From positions 1-21,599 of IMG/VR virus record IMGVR_UViG_3300044645_001737: DNA of 21,599 bases; one strand, given 5' to 3'. Of this stretch, positions 2,941 to 13,320 are shown piece after piece. The stretch is from a virus. Positions within the stretch are counted from its first letter, which is position 1; the number at the start of each line of letters is the position of its first letter. The notes under the pieces are model-generated. The model saw only the letters and a list, made by a program, of their open reading frames with translations, ran no database searches and was not told the DNA's origin. The translations under genes were made by a program, and so were the position numbers.

Positions 2941-4107
2941 TCAGACCACACCGTCATCAGACACATAGCTGAATGCGGTGGTCACGAAGTCCTTGTTCAG
3001 GATTTCGAAGCCGGCATACAGTTGCCAGATAAGGATGATGAAACGGCTGAAGTCGTCGTTGTTGTTGATCAGAACTTGAGCATTGGGGCCGCCAATACCC
3101 ACGCCGATCGACTGAGGACCGAAGAAGTAACCTTGGGCAACTTCTTGGGAAGTGTAGGTGCCGCCGGTGCCGGTGAAAGAAGTGCTGATGTTCTTGGTCG
3201 GGAAGTTGGTCGACTCGAAGAACTTAACGCCTTCAAACTGCACGCCGGTAGGCATAACAGGTTCGCCAGCCAGGAAATAGCCTTGACCAGCTTGGGGACC
3301 TTGGTAGAAGCTGGCGTTGTTAGGCAGCATGGGGTTACCCATGTACATGCCTTGGCCGGGGTTACCAGCGTAACGAGCAATCTCACGGAAGTCAGGATCA
3401 CGACGCAGGTGCATCATGAAAGTGGGATCGCAAATACAGCGATACAGACCATCAGCAAAGGTAGGAACGTTGCGCTTACGCAGGTCCTTAACAATGTTCA
3501 GAAGGTCGGTACGCACCGAGAACTGCTGCACGTCGGCAGTGTACTCGTCAGAGGTATAAGCGATACGACCAGAGGAGTCCTTGGCTTTGTTACCAGCGAA
3601 GTAGTAACCGCCTTGGGTGGTGCTAGCTTGACCATTGGCTTCGGCTTTGGCAAGTTCATCAATGAACACGCGGTCGCGCCAACGACGGTAGTCATCAAGC
3701 AGCGTCAGGCTACCGATGGACTGGTGGAACATGTTCAGGTTGCCGCTATCAAGCAGCAGACGCTGAGCAGTGATCAGAGTTTCGCGAGCGATCTTGAAGG
3801 TCGAAGGCTGGGTCGGATCACCAGGGTCCGCAGGACCGGTGTATTCCTTAAGCACCACCAGAACTTTTTCCTTGGTGATGTTACGGCTGTTAGCGGTACC
3901 GATGGTTTGGTCGGCGATACGCTCACGGCTATCCTTAGTACCAGGGGTACCCCAGAACTTATAGCGGTCTAACTGAACGGTTTGACCAGGCTGACGGGTG
4001 AAGTCGTGGACAACCACGGGCTCCACAGCCATTTCAGTGATATAGGCAGGGTGGGGCCGATATAATTCGGCGCCCAAAATTTTTGGAAAGTCGTTGTCAA
4101 TAAACAC
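2941..4107 (-). CDS. Major capsid protein
   Basis: The 388-aa product has the features of an HK97-fold major capsid protein, with resemblance to the N4 gp56-like group. An N-terminal segment holds QTVQLDRYKFWG followed by RIADQTIGTANSRNITKE, a beta-rich entry region; a long helix lies about residues 130-160 (DDYRRWRDRVFIDELAKAEA); a domain with CICDPTFMMHLRRDPDFREIA follows; and the C-terminal part (YFFGPQSIGVGIGGPN, IILIWQLYAGFEILNKDF) ends in the typical strand rich in aromatic residues. I chose the GTG at 4107-4105 because GGAGGA lies nine bases upstream. It follows scaffold-like and Gly/Ala-rich genes and precedes the accessory gene, as expected. Codon use is strongly biased, consistent with high expression. 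No protease gene or cleaved prodomain is evident. Confidence 0.85.
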   Translation of the reverse strand: MFIDNDFPKILGAELYRPHPAYITEMAVEPVVVHDFTRQPGQTVQLDRYKFWGTPGTKDSRERIADQTIGTANSRNITKEKVLVVLKEYTGPADPGDPTQPSTFKIARETLITAQRLLLDSGNLNMFHQSIGSLTLLDDYRRWRDRVFIDELAKAEANGQASTTQGGYYFAGNKAKDSSGRIAYTSDEYTADVQQFSVRTDLLNIVKDLRKRNVPTFADGLYRCICDPTFMMHLRRDPDFREIARYAGNPGQGMYMGNPMLPNNASFYQGPQAGQGYFLAGEPVMPTGVQFEGVKFFESTNFPTKNISTSFTGTGGTYTSQEVAQGYFFGPQSIGVGIGGPNAQVLINNNDDFSRFIILIWQLYAGFEILNKDFVTTAFSYVSDDGVV

Positions 4108-4705: not shown

Positions 4706-5707
4706 TCACTCCATCACAAACAGTTTGTTTGCAACAACTTGAGGTTGAGCTTGGTTCAGAAGACGCCAAGCATTCTCAGGACTTACATCCATTTGTTGCT
4801 TAAAGCTGCCCCAGAAGTTTTCAGGCTGTTGGGGAGCAGAAGCAGCGGGAGGTGCAGGAAACTGACCTAAGCTTTGATAAGCAGAAGTCGTGGGATAGCC
4901 ACGGGTTTCCAGTTCCGACTCATCTTCGTACACGGGGTACGGACCTTCGGGACCGAAGAACTTCAGCGTGTAATCGCTGAGCACATCGGGGTTGGTCAGG
5001 ATTTCGTTGTAGGCCAGGTTCTCTTGGTGCTCAGCAACAGAGAAGTCAGCAAAACGATGAAGGACCTCTTGTGCTTTACCGCCCCAAGCAACAGCGCTAT
5101 CCAGCATGGCTTCCAGTTGGAGGCCGTAGTTATTGAGGATGGCGGGTGCGTCCCAGCCGTAAGCGTCAATTACGTTTCGGCTTTCGGGACTTAGGTGCAG
5201 GTAATCGGCGATCGCCGTTTGCACTTCGCTCCGGAGCTCGTTGGCCACTTCCGGGGAGGATGCCGCTAAGGAGATTAGGGAAGAGTTGGGCGAGTAACCC
5301 TGGTTGGGTGACCAGGTCTGCGGAGCCGATTGTTGCGTAGCTGGGTTGCTGTACTGCTGACCGTAATTCGCCGGGGCGTAATCCGTCGTCGGATATGACT
5401 GACCCTGGAACGGGGATTGAACTGGACTGCTCAGCAGACCCACCACTTTGTTGAACGCCGACTCCCATGGGTTGGCCTGAGGGGCCGCCGGTTGGGATTG
5501 GGGGGCGTACTGAGTAGGGGCTGATTGGTAACTGGGGGCCGCTTGAGGCACCGCTTGGGGGTAGCTGGTACCCACCTGATACTGAACCGGCATCCCCATC
5601 GGAGCTTGAGGTGCCGGAGCTTGGGCCGGTACCACGTAGCTGCTTGGAGCCACCGCCACTGGTGATTGGCTCGTCTGTGGGATCGATTGGACGGTAGCGT
5701 CCTGCAT
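4706..5707 (-). CDS. Scaffold-like assembly protein
   Basis: The 333-aa product has a Pro/Gln/Ala-rich, apparently disordered N-terminal part (residues 1-140), a helical, charged central region (about 143-235, including SSPEVANELRSEVQTAIADYL and DFSVAEHQENLAYNEI) and a shorter tail ending KLFVME with an amphipathic helix (ENAWRLLNQAQ). Extended helical proteins encoded between portal and capsid are usually scaffolds, and this one sits exactly there. The start is secure: AGGAG lies seven bases before ATG at 5707-5705. The first 180 codons overlap the end of the portal gene in another frame (the scaffold frame starts on the second base of portal codon 583). The overlapped DNA is visibly G+C-richer than its surroundings. 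Scaffold function is inferred from position and composition. Confidence 0.7.
   Translation of the reverse strand: MQDATVQSIPQTSQSPVAVAPSSYVVPAQAPAPQAPMGMPVQYQVGTSYPQAVPQAAPSYQSAPTQYAPQSQPAAPQANPWESAFNKVVGLLSSPVQSPFQGQSYPTTDYAPANYGQQYSNPATQQSAPQTWSPNQGYSPNSSLISLAASSPEVANELRSEVQTAIADYLHLSPESRNVIDAYGWDAPAILNNYGLQLEAMLDSAVAWGGKAQEVLHRFADFSVAEHQENLAYNEILTNPDVLSDYTLKFFGPEGPYPVYEDESELETRGYPTTSAYQSLGQFPAPPAASAPQQPENFWGSFKQQMDVSPENAWRLLNQAQPQVVANKLFVME
5166..5707 (-). other. Dual-coding region: portal C-terminus and scaffold N-terminus
   Basis: For 542 bases the same strand is open in two frames, offset by one base. One gives portal residues 583-762, a Gly/Ser/Pro/Gln-rich tail ending in a basic cluster (APKSRKPKRN). 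The other gives scaffold-like residues 1-180. Both frames end or begin in clear genes, and the scaffold start has its own strong ribosome site inside the portal gene. The region includes a single GCGATCGC palindrome at 5208-5215. Confidence 0.75.
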
Positions 5708-7454
5708 AACTCATCTCCTTTTGTAGAGCTTCTAATGTTCGATACAGATATGGGGTTAAATCCAATCTTGGATCCGCAGCCATCGGTAAGTCCGGTGCCT
5801 GTGGGTGAGGAGTCTGCATCATGCCCCCCACTAAGCGAGCAAATTGAGAGTAAGCACCCTGCAATTCGTTCACCATCCTGAAAGGGAACCCAGATAACAT
5901 CTCGGCCCTTTCCTCATCCGTCTTAGACGGAAAGAGGTATTTCAGTGCTTCAATGCTATCAACACCTAATTCCTGTAGGTTTCGTACCACGATGGAGTTG
6001 TTGAGGATGTCTTGTGTAGAGTCCTCATAGACAGGGCCCATCCAACGCCATAACACTGTTACGTCACCGTCAGGAATAAGGCCGATAACCTTGGGTGGAA
6101 TTTGTTGTGTCTCCACACAAGCCATCATAAGTTTTTTCAACATCTCGTTGTGTTGCTTCATCGCCTCTTCGTAGGCAGCCTCTTCTTCAGGACTTGCACC
6201 TAAAGCTAAGTCCACTGGCTTCTCAAGGCCGGCTGCCATGGCAAGAGTTGTTTTGAACAACTGCTCTTCTTGGTAGATAATTAACTCAAGACAACGAGAG
6301 ATGCCGTGAGTATAAATTGCGTTTGCTTTCTTTTTAGATGTTGCAGCAACACGACCGAACAAGGATTTGTATTCTGTTGCGGTGACGCCTGCCGAAATTG
6401 AAAGTTCGTCAACACCACCTAAAGCAGTACGAATCTCTTCGCGATACTGACGGGCAAATGCGTTCTGGTCACCTGTGATTGCATCAGGAACGATGTAACC
6501 AACTCGGTCGTTTGGTTCCAGGTTCGCAATAACACGTGGAACTCGGATCTGACCATCTACACCACGACTAACGGGATCAGCCTTAAAGGTTGAACGACTC
6601 AATGCCGCGGGACTTGTAAAGCCAGAGTTAGCAGCGATTGAAGGGCGCTGGACCACGGAGTCACCACCTGCTTCCATCAAGTCCGTCTTGGGACGAGAAG
6701 AAAGAAGGGTAGGGTTACCAAAGAACGTGATGTTTTTGCGCATGGTGCGCATCAATTCATCATGAGTACAGATATGGTTTGCTACTGCGTCAAACTCTCC
6801 GGAACCCTCGTTGGAGAAACCTTGAGTATTGTTGATGATCTCTACGCAGGGAATAAAACCAAGACTATTTTTAAGCTGCTTGGTGCTCCCAGTCAAAGCA
6901 TAGGTAGGCATGTCGAAAGTCATCTCCGAATCGGAGTGAGTCTCTTCAATTTCCTTTGCCTTAATGGACAGACGAATATAACGCTTGGCCCCAGGGTTGT
7001 AAGTGCTTTGCGTTCCCGTAAGATTTGTTGTATTCAGCTGATCACCAAAGCCGTTACCTTTACGAACCTTGTAGCTGTAGATGATTACAACTTCATCCAG
7101 CTCGCCATCAACGTTGTAATAGGCACGATATTCGTGCTCACGAAAATAATAAAGCCTGTAGTTTTGCTTGGTAGGACGGATATAAAAAAGACCTTTGCCA
7201 TCACACAGGAAATATTCCCAGATCGAATCAAGGCGTGTATCTAGTTTGTTGTACTTCAGTACACGGTCCAGGAAGTCTTTGCGTTGTGCACCAAAGTTAT
7301 CCTGAGATGGAAAGAATTCAACTCCTTGGCGGATGCCAAAAAGTTTCATCTGAGCAATGTGGGCTGCGACAATGCTAGTGTCGACGACAACGTTACTATC
7401 CTTGTTGAGATAGGCGTCAATAATTTCGTTAAGTCGTGCCTTAGCGTCAGCCAC
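5166..7454 (-). CDS. Portal protein with long low-complexity C-terminal tail
   Basis: The 762-aa product looks like a tailed-phage portal (the dodecameric DNA channel of the head). Residues 30-130 hold an aromatic, mixed region (IWEYFLCDGKGLFYIRP); the clip/stem-like middle includes EVIDAV-type helices such as EFDAVANHICTHDELMRTM and FGNPTLLSSRP; the later core has YREEIRTALGGVDELS, ATEYKSLFGRV and IPDGDVTVLWRWMGP (459-474) followed by a helical region. The core ends near residue 595. From there the chain is Gly/Ser/Pro-rich and overlaps the scaffold gene. Start GTG at 7454-7452 is supported by GAGGAG five bases upstream. It lies two genes after the AbrB-like gene and close to terL, as expected of a packaging motor partner. 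Exact portal family is not determined. Confidence 0.85.
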   Translation of the reverse strand: MADAKARLNEIIDAYLNKDSNVVVDTSIVAAHIAQMKLFGIRQGVEFFPSQDNFGAQRKDFLDRVLKYNKLDTRLDSIWEYFLCDGKGLFYIRPTKQNYRLYYFREHEYRAYYNVDGELDEVVIIYSYKVRKGNGFGDQLNTTNLTGTQSTYNPGAKRYIRLSIKAKEIEETHSDSEMTFDMPTYALTGSTKQLKNSLGFIPCVEIINNTQGFSNEGSGEFDAVANHICTHDELMRTMRKNITFFGNPTLLSSRPKTDLMEAGGDSVVQRPSIAANSGFTSPAALSRSTFKADPVSRGVDGQIRVPRVIANLEPNDRVGYIVPDAITGDQNAFARQYREEIRTALGGVDELSISAGVTATEYKSLFGRVAATSKKKANAIYTHGISRCLELIIYQEEQLFKTTLAMAAGLEKPVDLALGASPEEEAAYEEAMKQHNEMLKKLMMACVETQQIPPKVIGLIPDGDVTVLWRWMGPVYEDSTQDILNNSIVVRNLQELGVDSIEALKYLFPSKTDEERAEMLSGFPFRMVNELQGAYSQFARLVGGMMQTPHPQAPDLPMAADPRLDLTPYLYRTLEALQKEMSYAGRYRPIDPTDEPITSGGGSKQLRGTGPSSGTSSSDGDAGSVSGGYQLPPSGASSGPQLPISPYSVRPPIPTGGPSGQPMGVGVQQSGGSAEQSSSIPVPGSVISDDGLRPGELRSAVQQPSYATIGSADLVTQPGLLAQLFPNLLSGILPGSGQRAPERSANGDRRLPAPKSRKPKRN

Positions 7455-7855: not shown

Positions 7856-8038
7856 TTACTCTTCTATTACTTCGTATCCAGCGGAGTCGTTGACTTTGGT
7901 AAGAGAGATGCCGGTACCACGCACGTCCCAGTTGAGTACGTCTCCTTCTTGCCAACCCAGCTCTTCGATTACTTCGTCTGGCAATGTGATGTATTGATCG
8001 CCGTTTTCGTCTTCTTGGACCTCAAGGATGTAACTCAT
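7856..8038 (-). CDS. AbrB/MazE/SpoVT-type DNA-binding protein
   Basis: This 60-aa protein matches the swapped-hairpin AbrB pattern. It has a first strand (YILEVQED), then GDQYITLPDEVIEELGWQEGD, where the LP and the helix end in G-W-x-E-G-D, followed by strands VLNWDVRGTGISLTKV. Such proteins dimerise and bind DNA, as transition-state regulators or as antitoxins. The ATG lies inside the end of the upstream gene (ATGA overlap), so expression is coupled; no separate ribosome site is seen. The neighbour does not look like a MazF, VapC or PIN toxin, so this is probably a stand-alone regulator or an orphan antitoxin. The target DNA is unknown. Confidence 0.8.
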   Translation of the reverse strand: MSYILEVQEDENGDQYITLPDEVIEELGWQEGDVLNWDVRGTGISLTKVNDSAGYEVIEE

Positions 8039-8359: not shown

Positions 8360-9886
8360 TCAATAATCAAGTTGAAGTTTGCCTTTACGCATCAGGCCAT
8401 TGATGAGCCACACAAGAGCGTCAACGCAGTCATCATGACTGCTGACACCAAAGTTAGTCATTTCTTCAAACATTGCAGTGAAGTTCCGGAAACGATTGAA
8501 GATAATTTTGCGATCTTCAAACATACCCATACAACCACGGAATCGAGCCAGTTTATCTGCTCGGAAACCTTTAACGGCATGCCAGTTAATGTTGTACAAG
8601 TTCTCACCGTTTAAGCAAACACGTTTAAAGTCAGCCTCCAAAGATGCCTGGTACTGTACGGCTTCTGAGTAAATGTCGCACGTTGAGTAGGTCGGAAAGT
8701 AATTACCGTTCTGATCACAACCCAAGATTGACCAATCATTGAGAAGTTCTTTGAGTGCATCTAGTTTTTCTAGGTTGCCCATCACGCGAATACGTCTGTA
8801 ATCAATAATGTGAATACTGTCGCCAATGCGTCCGCCAAGAACCATCACCGTGTAATCATTCTTTTCTTTGGTGCCAGCAGATAGATCGACCCCTACAGCA
8901 AGGGTGTCAAACTCCGTTGCAATCTCAGCCTTTACAATTAACTCTGGTGCCAGGGAGAGTTCATTCTGTCGAACCACCTGGTTCATGTACTGGAAAGAGA
9001 AAGCAATTGGTGCTTGTCGTTTCTTTTCCTTTAGGTAGTCCAGTGACCACATATCTGGCCAGTACGAGATCTCGTCCCCTGTCTTGGCATCATTCAAGAT
9101 TGCCGACAACACAATCTGCATCCAGTTGTTTTGCGGGTTGAATGTTGTTGAGTGAATGTCATCATGTCGGAAGCGGGTGCCAAGGCAGATGGCACGTGCT
9201 CCTTCAAACATGGTTGGTGCGATCACAGCATTCCAGTTGTCCTGCATCTGTTTACGGATGTCAGGGTTGGAAATGTCTGCCGCAGATTTAATGGCGTCAT
9301 CGATGATGACTAGGTGAGAACGCTTAGAGGTCACTGAGCCTTTAAGACCTGCCGCACACAGTGTGAACTGTTCTTCACCAGTGGTATCAATAGAAGCAAA
9401 CTTGTGATCAATAGACCAGTACTCATTACTGGTAACGTTCTTGAGAAGACGTACCTTCGGGAAGACCTCCTGGTACCGCTTGCTTTCAATGATTCGTTTA
9501 ATGGTTGCAGACTTGGAACGTGCGATATCAACCGTATAGGACAAGTAAAGAATCTGTAGTGGCATCTTGGCCATGGTGTGCACACCAATAGCCCATGCAG
9601 TAAACAGACCTAAGACTGTGGACTTGGCGGAACCACGAGGCGCAAGTAGGTCTACGTTGGGGCCAGCAATTTTAATGAGACAGCTACTGTCCTCATTAGT
9701 CACAAAGTGACGATGCCATTCTTTATGGTGTTCTGCCGGTGGCTTATCAGCTACGTAATCACAGAAGAAACCAAAATCGTCCCTTGCTTTCTGTAGCGTC
9801 TCAAGGTTGCGGGGGACACGAATTTGTTGCCGGCGGGCAGCAGCTTGTGCGTTGCGTCGATATGCAAGATGCTGATATGCAGGCAC
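8360..9886 (-). CDS. terL: Terminase large subunit
   Basis: The 508-aa protein has both parts of a large terminase, the ATPase and nuclease of the DNA-packaging motor. The ATPase shows a Walker A motif APRGSAKST (residues 82-90), Walker B LVIIDDAI (192-199) and a coupling motif LGTRF (235-239). The nuclease domain shows VGVDLS with Asp334 and SSHDDCVDALVW with Asp485, Asp486 and Asp489, an RNase H-like metal site. Length is normal for the family. The GTG at 9886 is the only usable start, because the frame has a stop 15 to 17 bases upstream and only ATA, ATA, CCG and ATC between; no Shine-Dalgarno is seen, and a hairpin lies just ahead. A candidate small terminase is encoded two genes upstream. 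Confidence 0.95.
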   Translation of the reverse strand: MPAYQHLAYRRNAQAAARRQQIRVPRNLETLQKARDDFGFFCDYVADKPPAEHHKEWHRHFVTNEDSSCLIKIAGPNVDLLAPRGSAKSTVLGLFTAWAIGVHTMAKMPLQILYLSYTVDIARSKSATIKRIIESKRYQEVFPKVRLLKNVTSNEYWSIDHKFASIDTTGEEQFTLCAAGLKGSVTSKRSHLVIIDDAIKSAADISNPDIRKQMQDNWNAVIAPTMFEGARAICLGTRFRHDDIHSTTFNPQNNWMQIVLSAILNDAKTGDEISYWPDMWSLDYLKEKKRQAPIAFSFQYMNQVVRQNELSLAPELIVKAEIATEFDTLAVGVDLSAGTKEKNDYTVMVLGGRIGDSIHIIDYRRIRVMGNLEKLDALKELLNDWSILGCDQNGNYFPTYSTCDIYSEAVQYQASLEADFKRVCLNGENLYNINWHAVKGFRADKLARFRGCMGMFEDRKIIFNRFRNFTAMFEEMTNFGVSSHDDCVDALVWLINGLMRKGKLQLDY

Positions 9887-11197: not shown

Positions 11198-11218
11198 TAC
11201 CAGTAAGCATTAGATAGA

Positions 11219-11503
11219 TCAGAAATTACCCATCATGCTAGCGAGACCGCCGGCCATGGTGTCACGCTGACGTGCGCGGTTGCCTTGGGCAGCTTGACGC
11301 ATTTTAGAGCCTTCAAGGCGACCAACAAGGGTTTCAAAATCTTGAAGCTCGGCTTTGGACATGCCGCCACCAGTTTCGCGTTCGAGCCAGGCATCAACTG
11401 CTTGTTGTGCCTCAAGTTGACTCATGCCCTGTGCCACGAGTCCGGACACGGTCGGACGAGGACCACGGTTGCCGGCGGTAGTTTGATTAATCGAGTAACC
11501 CAT
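11219..11503 (-). CDS. Unidentified 94-aa helical protein
   Basis: The protein has a short N-terminal tail, a helix with Ala/Gln-rich character (SGLVAQGMSQLEAQQAVDAWLER), a Gly-Gly-Gly break near residue 45, a second charged helix (KAELQDFETLVGRLEGSKMRQAA), and a Met/Gly-rich end (AGGLASMMGNF). The ending is similar in type to that of the glycine-repeat protein encoded just upstream (KMMGNITSMFNF), which hints at a shared interaction or relation. There is no membrane segment or catalytic motif. Unknown function; probably a small virion or assembly protein because of its place in the operon. Confidence 0.65.
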   Translation of the reverse strand: MGYSINQTTAGNRGPRPTVSGLVAQGMSQLEAQQAVDAWLERETGGGMSKAELQDFETLVGRLEGSKMRQAAQGNRARQRDTMAGGLASMMGNF

Positions 11504-11546
11504 TTGCTTAAAGAGAAATCTCTACAGTTATTTTAGTATATTCAGC

Positions 11547-12287
11547 TTAAAAGTTGAACATACTAGTGATGTTGCCCATCATTTTAGATCCGCGCTCTAC
11601 TCGAGAAATCTGAGTGTATCCTGCATTAACAATTTTTTGCAAGTCAAGTTTCCCGCTGATTTCCGTTTGTAACAGTGGCTTTTTATTGTCTTCTATGTAT
11701 TTTGTGCGCTCAGTTTCTCCAGCTTGTTGGAGCTGGACAATTTGTAATTGAGTTTGTAAATTTGCGCCTTCTTGTGCTGCGTCAAATGTAGACTGCGGAA
11801 CATATCCCTCTGGGATTTCGTAGCCGCCATTGTTGTAGCCACCACCCCAGTTATTTAAAGTGTCAGTGAAATCATTTAAAAAATCTGAAGGGTCCCAGTT
11901 GCTTCCACCGCCTCCTCCTCCACCACCACCGCCACCCGACATTCCACCACCACCGCCACCTGACATTCCTCCACCACTACTTCCACCACCACCTGACATT
12001 CCTCCACCGCCACCGCCGCCGCCGCCGCCGGACATTCCTCCACCACTACTTCCACCGCCACCTGACATTCCTCCACCGCCACCGCCACCTGACATTCCTC
12101 CACCACTATTTCCACCGCCTACGTAAGGTGCGTACCAAGGCTGGGAACCGCCACCGCCACCGCCGCCACCGCCGCCACCGCCGCCACCGCCGCCACCGCC
12201 GCCTGACATTCCTCCACCGCCACCGGACATTCCGCCGCCACCGCCACCATCGCCCATTCCACCGCCGCCGCCCATTCCCATTGACAT
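11547..12287 (-). CDS. Glycine-repeat protein with MSGGGG units
   Basis: The 246-aa product has an N-terminal half (residues 1-130) that is almost only Gly, Met and Ser, with eight MSGGG units, one glycine run of about 19 and a single interruption around SQPWYAPYVGG. The C-terminal part (about 130-246) is ordinary: an acidic/aromatic segment (NWDPSDFLNDFTDTLNNWGGG) and a helical Gln/Leu region (LQTQLQIVQLQQAGETERTKY). The start has a strong ribosome site, AAGGAGA seven bases before ATG, which overlaps the stop of the SET gene. The repeat half is probably flexible, as in fibre-linking or surface proteins; the function is not known. The antisense strand reads as polyproline and is a shadow. Confidence 0.72.
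   Translation of the reverse strand: MSMGMGGGGGMGDGGGGGGMSGGGGGMSGGGGGGGGGGGGGGGGGGGSQPWYAPYVGGGNSGGGMSGGGGGGGMSGGGGSSGGGMSGGGGGGGGGGMSGGGGSSGGGMSGGGGGGMSGGGGGGGGGGGSNWDPSDFLNDFTDTLNNWGGGYNNGGYEIPEGYVPQSTFDAAQEGANLQTQLQIVQLQQAGETERTKYIEDNKKPLLQTEISGKLDLQKIVNAGYTQISRVERGSKMMGNITSMFNF
11904..12287. repeat. GGN/CCN trinucleotide-rich repeat array with 60-69 base units
   Basis: The DNA for the glycine half of the protein is a CCN-type array on the plus strand. A 29-base unit starting GACATTCCTCCACCACTA recurs at 11962, 12031 and 12091 (spacings of 69 and 60 bases, both multiples of three) with one or two changes. Separating runs are simple CCG/CCA triplets. The structure is in-frame and prone to slippage or unequal exchange. 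Confidence 0.85.
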
Positions 12288-12299
12288 TTGTAAATCTCC

Positions 12300-12695
12300 T
12301 TAATTTAAAACAAAACGATCCACGTTATTTTTTCCATAGTCAAGAGTAATTTCTTGATCTGCTTCTATCTGCAAAATTGAATAGTGGCGAATAACCTGAT
12401 TCACATAGTCAATTTCATAAGAAGCATTTGGAATCCCACTATGGTTATACAATCCAGCATAACCCATCCCTATCAACTGACTGTTATCAGTCAACCAATA
12501 AGAATAGCGCTCACACTCGGGAGCGTTTTCAATTTGAGAGTCAGGCACCTCAAAATAAGGAGACTCCTCTAGTAAATCGTGTTTATTGATTTGCTCTTTA
12601 GCAAAAACACCCCAGCGATGAACGTCCGATCGTCTAATTTCTAAAGCTGGATTTTTGCGTAATGTTGCTTTAGCAAGAGAAAAATCTTCCGGCAT
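12300..12695 (-). CDS. SET-domain protein (putative protein lysine methyltransferase)
   Basis: The 131-aa protein is a compact SET domain. It shows the N-terminal glycine motif HRWGVFAKE (residues 26-34), the SAM-pocket and catalytic-fold signature YNHSGIPNASYEI (83-95, with Asn84-His85-Ser86) and EITLDYG (115-121, with Tyr120). SET enzymes methylate protein lysines using S-adenosylmethionine. There is no post-SET cysteine cluster, and the size is near that of minimal viral SET proteins such as the roughly 120-residue chlorovirus enzyme. A candidate promoter (12748-12720) lies just upstream, while no Shine-Dalgarno is seen. The gene sits between an internal-virion-like block and the glycine-repeat gene. 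Substrate unknown: a phage or host Lys-rich protein is possible. Fold assignment is firm; activity is inferred. Confidence 0.85.
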   Translation of the reverse strand: MPEDFSLAKATLRKNPALEIRRSDVHRWGVFAKEQINKHDLLEESPYFEVPDSQIENAPECERYSYWLTDNSQLIGMGYAGLYNHSGIPNASYEIDYVNQVIRHYSILQIEADQEITLDYGKNNVDRFVLN

Positions 12696-12719
12696 TTAAC
12701 GTCAAGCGCATTTCAGTAC

Positions 12720-12748
12720 ACTATACCTACTTTGCGCTGTTTTGTATT
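12720..12748 (-). promoter_or_regulatory. Candidate sigma70-type promoter before the SET gene
   Basis: On the minus strand AATACA (12748-12743) is followed after 17 bases by TATAGT (12725-12720). The -10 box matches consensus at five of six positions, the -35 box at three of six. Transcription would start about 20 bases before the SET ATG, in the 61-base gap after the preceding gene. Confidence 0.4.
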
Positions 12749-12756
12749 GCCTGTAG

Positions 12757-13320
12757 TTAACCAATCATTGAATTGATCATGGACTGCACCTGTGCTGGGT
12801 CGTACCGTACCAGGCCCCTGAGCAGGTTTCCTTTCGCATCACGTGGCATGGTTCCGTACTGTGATTCCCACGCAATATCTGCTTCTGATTTAATCTTGCG
12901 TTGACCTTCTGGAGTTGAAGCAAGGCGTTGGGTGAAGAATGCTTCAAACGCATTGGGATCTTTAATGCCTTTCACCCTTGCAAGGCTAGAGGTTGATTCC
13001 CACTCGGAGTCTGTCATTTGGCGCCCCAGTAAATCCTGGAATGCTGACGCACCAAGGCCTCTGTAATTGTTATAGTCAACAGGCTTAGACCCTAACTTAG
13101 CAATAAACGTTTCCGGACGCCAGTTAAGATATCCTCTTGTTCCAGCTAAATAAGAAGCTGCGTCACTAGGACTAGTCCTATTAAGATCACGGGCATAATT
13201 TTTAATGCTTTTTATTTCTTTCTTTGTAAGCCTACCCGCAGCAGCGGGATACTGCTCAAAAATACTGTTAGTAGTATGAGAGCCTTCAGTTGGATCGAGG
13301 CCTACTAAATCAAAAGCCAT
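12757..13320 (-). CDS. Unidentified 187-aa protein
   Basis: The product is a soluble, helical protein. Short charged helices (LTKKEIKSIKNYARDLNR; EADIAWESQYG) alternate with an aromatic middle (GYLNWRPETFIAKLG) and a second helical region (FQDLLGRQMTDSEWESTSSLARVKG, PNAFEAFFTQRL). It lacks signal, membrane or metal-binding features. The gene has a plausible promoter and a short AAGG-type ribosome site upstream. Position in the run of internal virion candidates suggests a structural role, but the absence of the Gly/Ala hydrophobic segments seen in its neighbours sets it apart. I do not recognise it. Confidence 0.7.
   Translation of the reverse strand: MAFDLVGLDPTEGSHTTNSIFEQYPAAAGRLTKKEIKSIKNYARDLNRTSPSDAASYLAGTRGYLNWRPETFIAKLGSKPVDYNNYRGLGASAFQDLLGRQMTDSEWESTSSLARVKGIKDPNAFEAFFTQRLASTPEGQRKIKSEADIAWESQYGTMPRDAKGNLLRGLVRYDPAQVQSMINSMIG

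Follow-up and report, generated by a model that had tools for sequence, protein, structure and literature searches.

SET domains have been studied mainly as writers of lysine methylation on histone tails, and to our knowledge the hosts of the phages considered here have no histones. The closest described relatives of the SET gene analyzed here are vSET of chlorovirus PBCV-1 (A612L; 1n3j, 3kma) and Set7 of S. pombe (5h6z), which are likewise minimal, stand-alone SET proteins of the same fold. However, they are only about 27% identical to it and act on histone lysines in eukaryotic systems; the gene in question lies beside a methionine-array gene in phages. Methionine has also been connected with the fold. 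BurB of Burkholderia thailandensis, for which crystal structures are known, is a SET enzyme that S-methylates free methionine (PMC12542666). It is thus a case of a SET fold serving methionine S-methylation (PMC12542666), but it acts on the free amino acid in DMSP synthesis and is longer, at 172 aa. SETD3 is reported, in a passage of PMC8537074 that cites Dai 2020, to methylate methionine in peptides in vitro; its natural target, however, is His73 of actin, and it has a Rubisco-LSMT-type substrate-binding domain that is absent from the 131-aa phage protein, in which Pfam gives a SET match only. A further point of comparison is the trapping of SET enzymes by K-to-M oncohistones, where a flexible tail presents the SET domain with a methionine, in many cases with serine as the next residue (PMC4853476, PMC5030085, PMC5335568). 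There, a single mutated residue acts as an inhibitor, whereas here many methionines form an evolved array with its own SET gene. The fold is a known one and the partnership is new: SET and methionine repeats are inherited together in four unrelated phage groups. In the open-access literature searched, which was not exhaustive, we found no description of a phage or cyanophage SET paired with a methionine array.

The SET gene and its surroundings

The window (the whole 21.6-kb stretch of DNA analyzed, an IMG/VR viral record) covers the late part of the genome of a relative of Synechococcus phage S-EIV1 (KJ410740). The late genes are syntenic, and identities to S-EIV1 reach 86% for the major capsid protein (2941–4107, on the minus strand like every window feature given below), 81% for the terminase large subunit, TerL (8360–9886), and 72% for the portal or virion structural protein (5166–7454). 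The SET gene (12300–12695) encodes 131 aa, with NHSGIPN at residues 84–90 and EITLDYG at residues 115–121 of the translation. From these motifs, the first-pass annotation had described a minimal SET protein inside a late virion operon, and both points are borne out, the second by the identified capsid, portal, and TerL genes nearby. It had also proposed a profile search and a structure prediction. The former gave a match to Pfam SET (PF00856) over residues 28–121 (E = 1.9e-9; 38.3 bits against a curated cut-off of 22.4). Against PDB sequences, phmmer found Set7 (5h6z, 4.8e-9) and vSET (1n3j, 5.4e-8), and a sequence profile of the window SET matched the same two solved structures at 5e-26 and 9e-25, respectively. 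The latter gave a SET fold: an AlphaFold2 model from a 49-sequence alignment (48 homologues) reached a pLDDT of 89.8 and a pTM of 0.82, while a single-sequence model (pLDDT 43) was discarded. Set7, vSET, and Plasmodium 4rz0 were on top in Foldseek, with E-values of 1e-9 to Set7 and 3e-9 to vSET, the latter with a TM score of 0.87 by target length. No BurB chain was among the best 60 of 168 PDB matches to the SET, and the PDB copy may not include BurB. Residues N84, H85, N90, and Y120 are at least 90% conserved across the 49 SET sequences, Tyr120 being the catalytic-type tyrosine. By Pfam match, profile comparison with solved structures, and fold, the window gene is a genuine SET domain.

The nearest relatives lack the gene. 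S-EIV1, with the same late-gene order as the window, has no SET at the corresponding position; the gene in that slot begins MGGKKVSYTPPPP and has no methionine array. No SET was found in the best 80 TerL relatives (L011–L090) within the available stretches, some of which end short of the slot. In SET-less relatives, the gene before SET (12757–13320, 187 aa) has a homologue that runs directly into the gene corresponding to the one after SET (11547–12287). By this comparison, the window SET is an accessory gene slotted between the two.

Comparison with S-EIV1 also turned up several features of the late region itself. The S-EIV1 TerL (L009:18081–20621) has an in-frame insertion of approximately 330 aa after residue 199 that is absent from the window TerL and is possibly an intein. 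A 333-aa ORF of the window (4706–5707) shares approximately 540 nt with the end of the portal gene, read in a different frame, and is 68% identical to its counterpart frame in S-EIV1; this is either long dual coding or a by-product of portal conservation. In S-EIV1, the minus-strand hypothetical protein AHV82227 (L009:24785–25546) is annotated over the plus-strand major capsid gene (capsid match 24860–26008) and is probably a mis-call. A 60-aa protein of the packaging region (7856–8038), 61% identical in S-EIV1, presumably resembles an AbrB/MazE-type DNA-binding domain.

A TATAGT promoter had been suggested ahead of SET. The hexamer (12720–12725) is part of GGTATAGT (12720–12727), a candidate −10 element that lies 24 nt ahead of the SET ATG. 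It has no recognizable −35 box and is missing from the list of a sigma-70 scan, and copies of GGTATAGT with at most one mismatch are no more frequent in the window than expected (8 against 10.8). As a general phage promoter, it was rejected for this lack of enrichment. Some support comes from conservation in the closest relatives: GGTATAGT stands in exact register in seven close SET-bearing contigs, and in three of these, where SET is 76% identical and the spacer otherwise 29% identical, it is kept. Such a conserved run arises in 21 of 20,000 shuffles. GGTATAGT was not found ahead of more distant SET genes; some of these overlap their upstream neighbor. A local promoter before SET is thus plausible for the window's own group only.

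Methionine arrays beside SET genes

The partner gene (11547–12287, 246 aa) starts 12 nt past the SET stop codon and has a GGAG ribosome-binding site. Its C-terminal part has homologues in SET-less relatives. Residues 1–129 (11901–12287) form a Gly/Met/Ser array that contains neither lysine nor arginine, with methionines at positions 1, 3, 5, 11, 20, 27, 65, 74, 85, 97, 108, and 116. The first lysine is residue 196. The array as a lysine substrate was rejected, since it holds no lysine.

A terminal, low-complexity methionine array of this kind is present on an adjacent virion-region gene (a name given by position near portal, TerL, or tail genes, not by proteomics) in every readable SET-bearing locus of the window's clade. 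These loci come from metagenomic contigs, many of them fragments, and the scans return the nearest 80. The repeat unit is usually [G/A]-M-[S/G], with lysine and arginine nearly absent. Array and SET occur together in four unrelated backgrounds, namely S-EIV1-like, T7-like, a tail-spike podovirus group, and T4-like. In the first three, the array follows SET, and the tails hold 6–33 methionines and almost no lysine. In phages for which no further similarity to the window was detected, the gene directly after SET opens with the type of sequence seen in the Gly-rich window partner: it begins MPMGGMGGMGGMGG in the T7-like L097, MAMNMSNSGGGGGMSGGGG in the tail-spike group (L098–L107, L320–L396), and MGKKKGMGKMGMGMGMSMGM in L108, which keeps a few lysines; in L109, an S-EIV1-like phage with a distant SET, the post-SET gene has MGGMGGGGGGGMGG. 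In the T4-like background, the array comes before SET, near the C-terminus of a preceding fibre-like protein and ahead of an S74 chaperone (GGGMSGGGGGGGGMGMSDINLK). It can be very short there, as in L223 and L226, where an Arg/Pro-rich stretch precedes GGMGMSD. Six T4-like contigs scanned with a codon pattern for A-M-S repeats gave no match, as the methionine spacing differs in them.

The C-terminal position of the T4-like array also bears on another use of the enzyme, in which SET would methylate the partner's N-terminal amino group after removal of Met1. Partner N-termini are indeed similar (MAMNMS, MPMNMS, MSMGMG, MGGMGG), but modification of the alpha-amino group would leave no role for an array near the far end of the preceding protein, and the repeats reach far past the N-terminus. 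We regard it as very improbable.

The composition of the arrays varies, and so does the residue after methionine. In the largest group, 79% of methionines are followed by serine, against 17% in composition-preserving shuffles; the figures for the window's group are 69% and 17%, and in a deep S-EIV1-like group (L111–L113) glycine takes the place of serine. Gly-richness was rejected as the key feature: Ala/Pro/Gln-rich arrays (AMSQAMSEAPAMSQ) occur with SET, and Gly-rich Lys/Arg arrays without it. A blunt scan by methionine count gave false positives in 32 of 48 control loci, so later counts were limited to low-complexity segments poor in lysine and arginine.

In ten T4-like SET-bearing contigs (L110, L114, L218, L223, L227–L231, L237), the S74 chaperone region that follows the array is divided between two frames (...MGMSDINLKDNI... 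plus a separate ORF ...GVIAQEVQKEFPEMVE). The split is identical in every contig, and it reflects either a split gene or a frameshift.

Charge at the tail with and without SET

To compare tails independently of SET, orthologues were collected with anchors blind to it: TerL, the T7-like portal, a 633-aa tail gene, and a T4-like 834-aa gene. In all four anchor sets, the SET-less loci have no array. Over the terminal 60 residues, methionine numbers 5.4 with SET and 0.2 without in the S-EIV1-like set, 14.0 and 0.7 in the T7-like, 10.2 and 1.2 in the tail-spike, and 5.4 and 0.6 in the T4-like, and lysine plus arginine runs the other way, at 0.0 and 9.6, 2.0 and 10.8, 0.4 and 7.8, and 2.0 and 7.2, respectively; these counts take related contigs separately, so that P-values overstate independence, the T7-like SET-bearing entries are two loci, and SET-bearing entries of the first three sets were picked for having a tail. 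Every SET-bearing locus left out stops at a contig edge or has an interrupted reading frame (L006).

Gain and loss of the two features could be followed on the tail-spike tree, where the SET state changed at least five times on strong branches, or seven times in the best tree; each time, the array changed along with it. All 42 SET-bearing members of the group have an array and all 16 SET-less members lack one; the five independent pairs are all concordant, in a sign test whose floor with five pairs is 0.0625. The other three backgrounds show concordant changes, outside the formal test. The association was also approached from the opposite side, with a SET-blind DNA pattern for arrays: SET accompanied the array in 11 of 14 array loci. 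The remaining three comprise a locus whose contig also carries SET, a locus truncated where its contig stops, and a single genuine exception, L464. Conversely, SET occurs in 2 of 102 loci classed as non-array, both of which border arrays that were missed by the threshold or the locus edge.

What takes the place of methionine in the SET-less tails is often a cation. The same frame can hold arginine in the methionine position, as in GGGGRSSGGGG without SET and GGGGMSSGGGG with it. Comparable pairs are GGGGGGRSSGGGGGGRSS of S-CBP1 (SET-less) and GGGGGGMSSGGSGGGGMSS of L007 (SET-bearing), and PARSSSPARSSAPARSN of DSL-LC07 (SET-less) and PAMSAPAMSQAPAMSQ (SET-bearing). Other SET-less tails carry arginine or lysine in the frame (L074, GGAKASAPSGGGGGAKASAPSGG; L022, GGGGNKPSGGGG; L546, GGGKGGGGGKR), and many more orthologues have an MxKKK start or a KKKK end. 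Many SET-less tails share positive charge only, with no alignable frame, and three (L377, L379, L243) are not Lys-rich. At the tail, methionine and lysine or arginine are mutually exclusive. More than any other observation, this swap of charge favors a conversion of methionine into a cation.

We therefore propose that the SET gene and the methionine-rich end of the neighboring virion-region protein form one functional unit. SET would recognize the array and pass methyl groups from SAM, most likely, to the methionine thioethers, so that a neutral tail would become a string of permanently charged S-methylmethionine sulfonium cations. Such a tail would do, after synthesis, the job that lysine and arginine do in SET-less phages, for example (as a guess) binding packaged DNA or a membrane. 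The comparison strongly supports the association of SET with the array; it is the chemistry that we infer. Counting against the proposal are the very short arrays of some T4-like loci, the few lysines kept by L108, the SET-less tails that share no frame or are not Lys-rich, and the phage SETs outside this clade, which have no clear array next to them. Our confidence that the two are a unit in which SET methylates the methionine sulfur, with the resulting cation replacing lysine and arginine, is a little less than even. We put forward slightly more tentatively the broader proposal of a phage protein-methionine S-methyltransferase that makes sulfonium polycations out of the tandem methionine arrays of virion proteins, in place of Lys/Arg tails. 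As far as we found, neither a multi-site methionine modification nor a charge switch of this kind made after synthesis has been described before, nor did we find such a modification reported in viruses. If the proposal proves true, phages would genetically encode a sulfonium polycation, which would be novel as a protein modification and possibly of use as a tool. As to targets, the first-pass annotation had named host translation or nucleoid proteins and Lys-rich phage proteins. We found no support for the host proteins. A phage protein, the adjacent virion-region one, does seem likely, with methionine rather than lysine as the residue, to judge from the constant methionine-rich, lysine-free companion.

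In its motifs and fold, the SET protein matches the lysine methyltransferases, and the window partner has six lysines outside its array. SET might accordingly act on lysines, whether of the partner core, of further virion proteins, or of the host, with the tail kept poor in lysine to avoid competition. Such avoidance would cover the loss of lysine but not that of arginine, and the gain of evenly spaced methionines only with SET would be left unexplained. We consider an ordinary lysine methyltransferase rather unlikely.

In a stronger competing reading, the spaced methionines serve as Lys-to-Met pseudo-substrates: by binding them when SAM is present, SET would stay docked on the virion protein, and its true target would be another protein. 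SET could then be packaged, delivered, or kept inactive. With SAM, SET pockets have a higher affinity for K-to-M peptides than for the lysine peptides (16-fold in PMC4853476; PMC5030085; PMC5335568), and no product is formed in the known SET–methionine complexes of histone enzymes (PMC4853476), which counts against S-methylation. The nearest structures are histone-type SETs, and the MSTGG and MSAP repeats resemble KSTGG and KSAP of H3 with M for K, a resemblance seen by eye and without statistics. However, docking leaves unexplained why arginine as well as lysine stands at the same places in SET-less orthologues and why both disappear from the tail when SET is present, and no other target is known. 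It may apply, with perhaps half the likelihood that we give to methylation of the array. S-methylation is preferred because it accounts for the absence of arginine as well as lysine, a permanent sulfonium cation being a replacement for either; BurB and SETD3 are its precedents among SET-domain enzymes. If there is docking only, phages would be using an oncohistone-type K-to-M trap as a built-in tether. Under either reading, the question of the phage SET substrate can be reduced to one enzyme and one peptide.

The phage SET family

Profile-based scans gave approximately 90 further SET loci among the matches listed. The closest cellular SETs, mostly acidobacterial, are at most 36% identical to the window SET, and a recent cellular donor was rejected on the ground of this distance. 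The only match to a close SET relative sought in annotated phages was an unannotated 735-kb phage (37%). On the tree, the window SET groups with that of the T7-like L097 (67% identical, 99% support), whose portal matches the cyanophage S-CBP1 portal at 73.5% identity, and stands apart from the SETs of other S-EIV1-like phages (L109, L111). This placement indicates horizontal transfer of SET between phages.

Identities around the gene are mosaic. Over 11200–13320 of the window, many late genes are 95–100% identical to those of L003–L005 and SET only 88%; in L002, SET is 99% identical and the gene before it 61%. Judged by these values, there is recombination around SET. Transfer and mosaicism would both suit an accessory cassette in which SET and low-complexity DNA travel together with no functional link. 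However, array position and gene order vary between backgrounds, the array following SET in three and preceding it in the T4-like one, which argues against hitch-hiking, and SET-less Gly-rich tails have lysine or arginine rather than methionine. We think mere co-travel improbable, if somewhat less so than modification of the partner N-terminus.

Array-linked SETs share Y66, G76, H104, and Y105, in which they differ from most other phage SETs. The four residues are candidates for the specificity of array-linked SETs, though a marine SET group in which no array is clear has them as well. More distant phage SETs, with neighbors such as a tail-sheath gene, a UvsW-like helicase, genes of glycosyltransferase type, or, in marine S-EIV1-like phages, polA, have no clear adjacent array, so the claim of a SET–array pairing covers the clade around the window gene. 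Other SET subfamilies (L165–L169, L131–L150, L148–L158) lie by a tail-sheath gene, a UvsW-like SNF2 helicase, or glycosyltransferase-looking genes of large phages. In the marine phages L599 and L604 (contigs G008 and G009), which have distant S-EIV1-like late genes, SET lies beside polA/HNH. Both also carry unlinked, protamine-like Arg/Met-rich proteins (RPMRRSRPMRRS; MSGSGMSMAPDGMSMAMSM), which might be the partners of those SETs.
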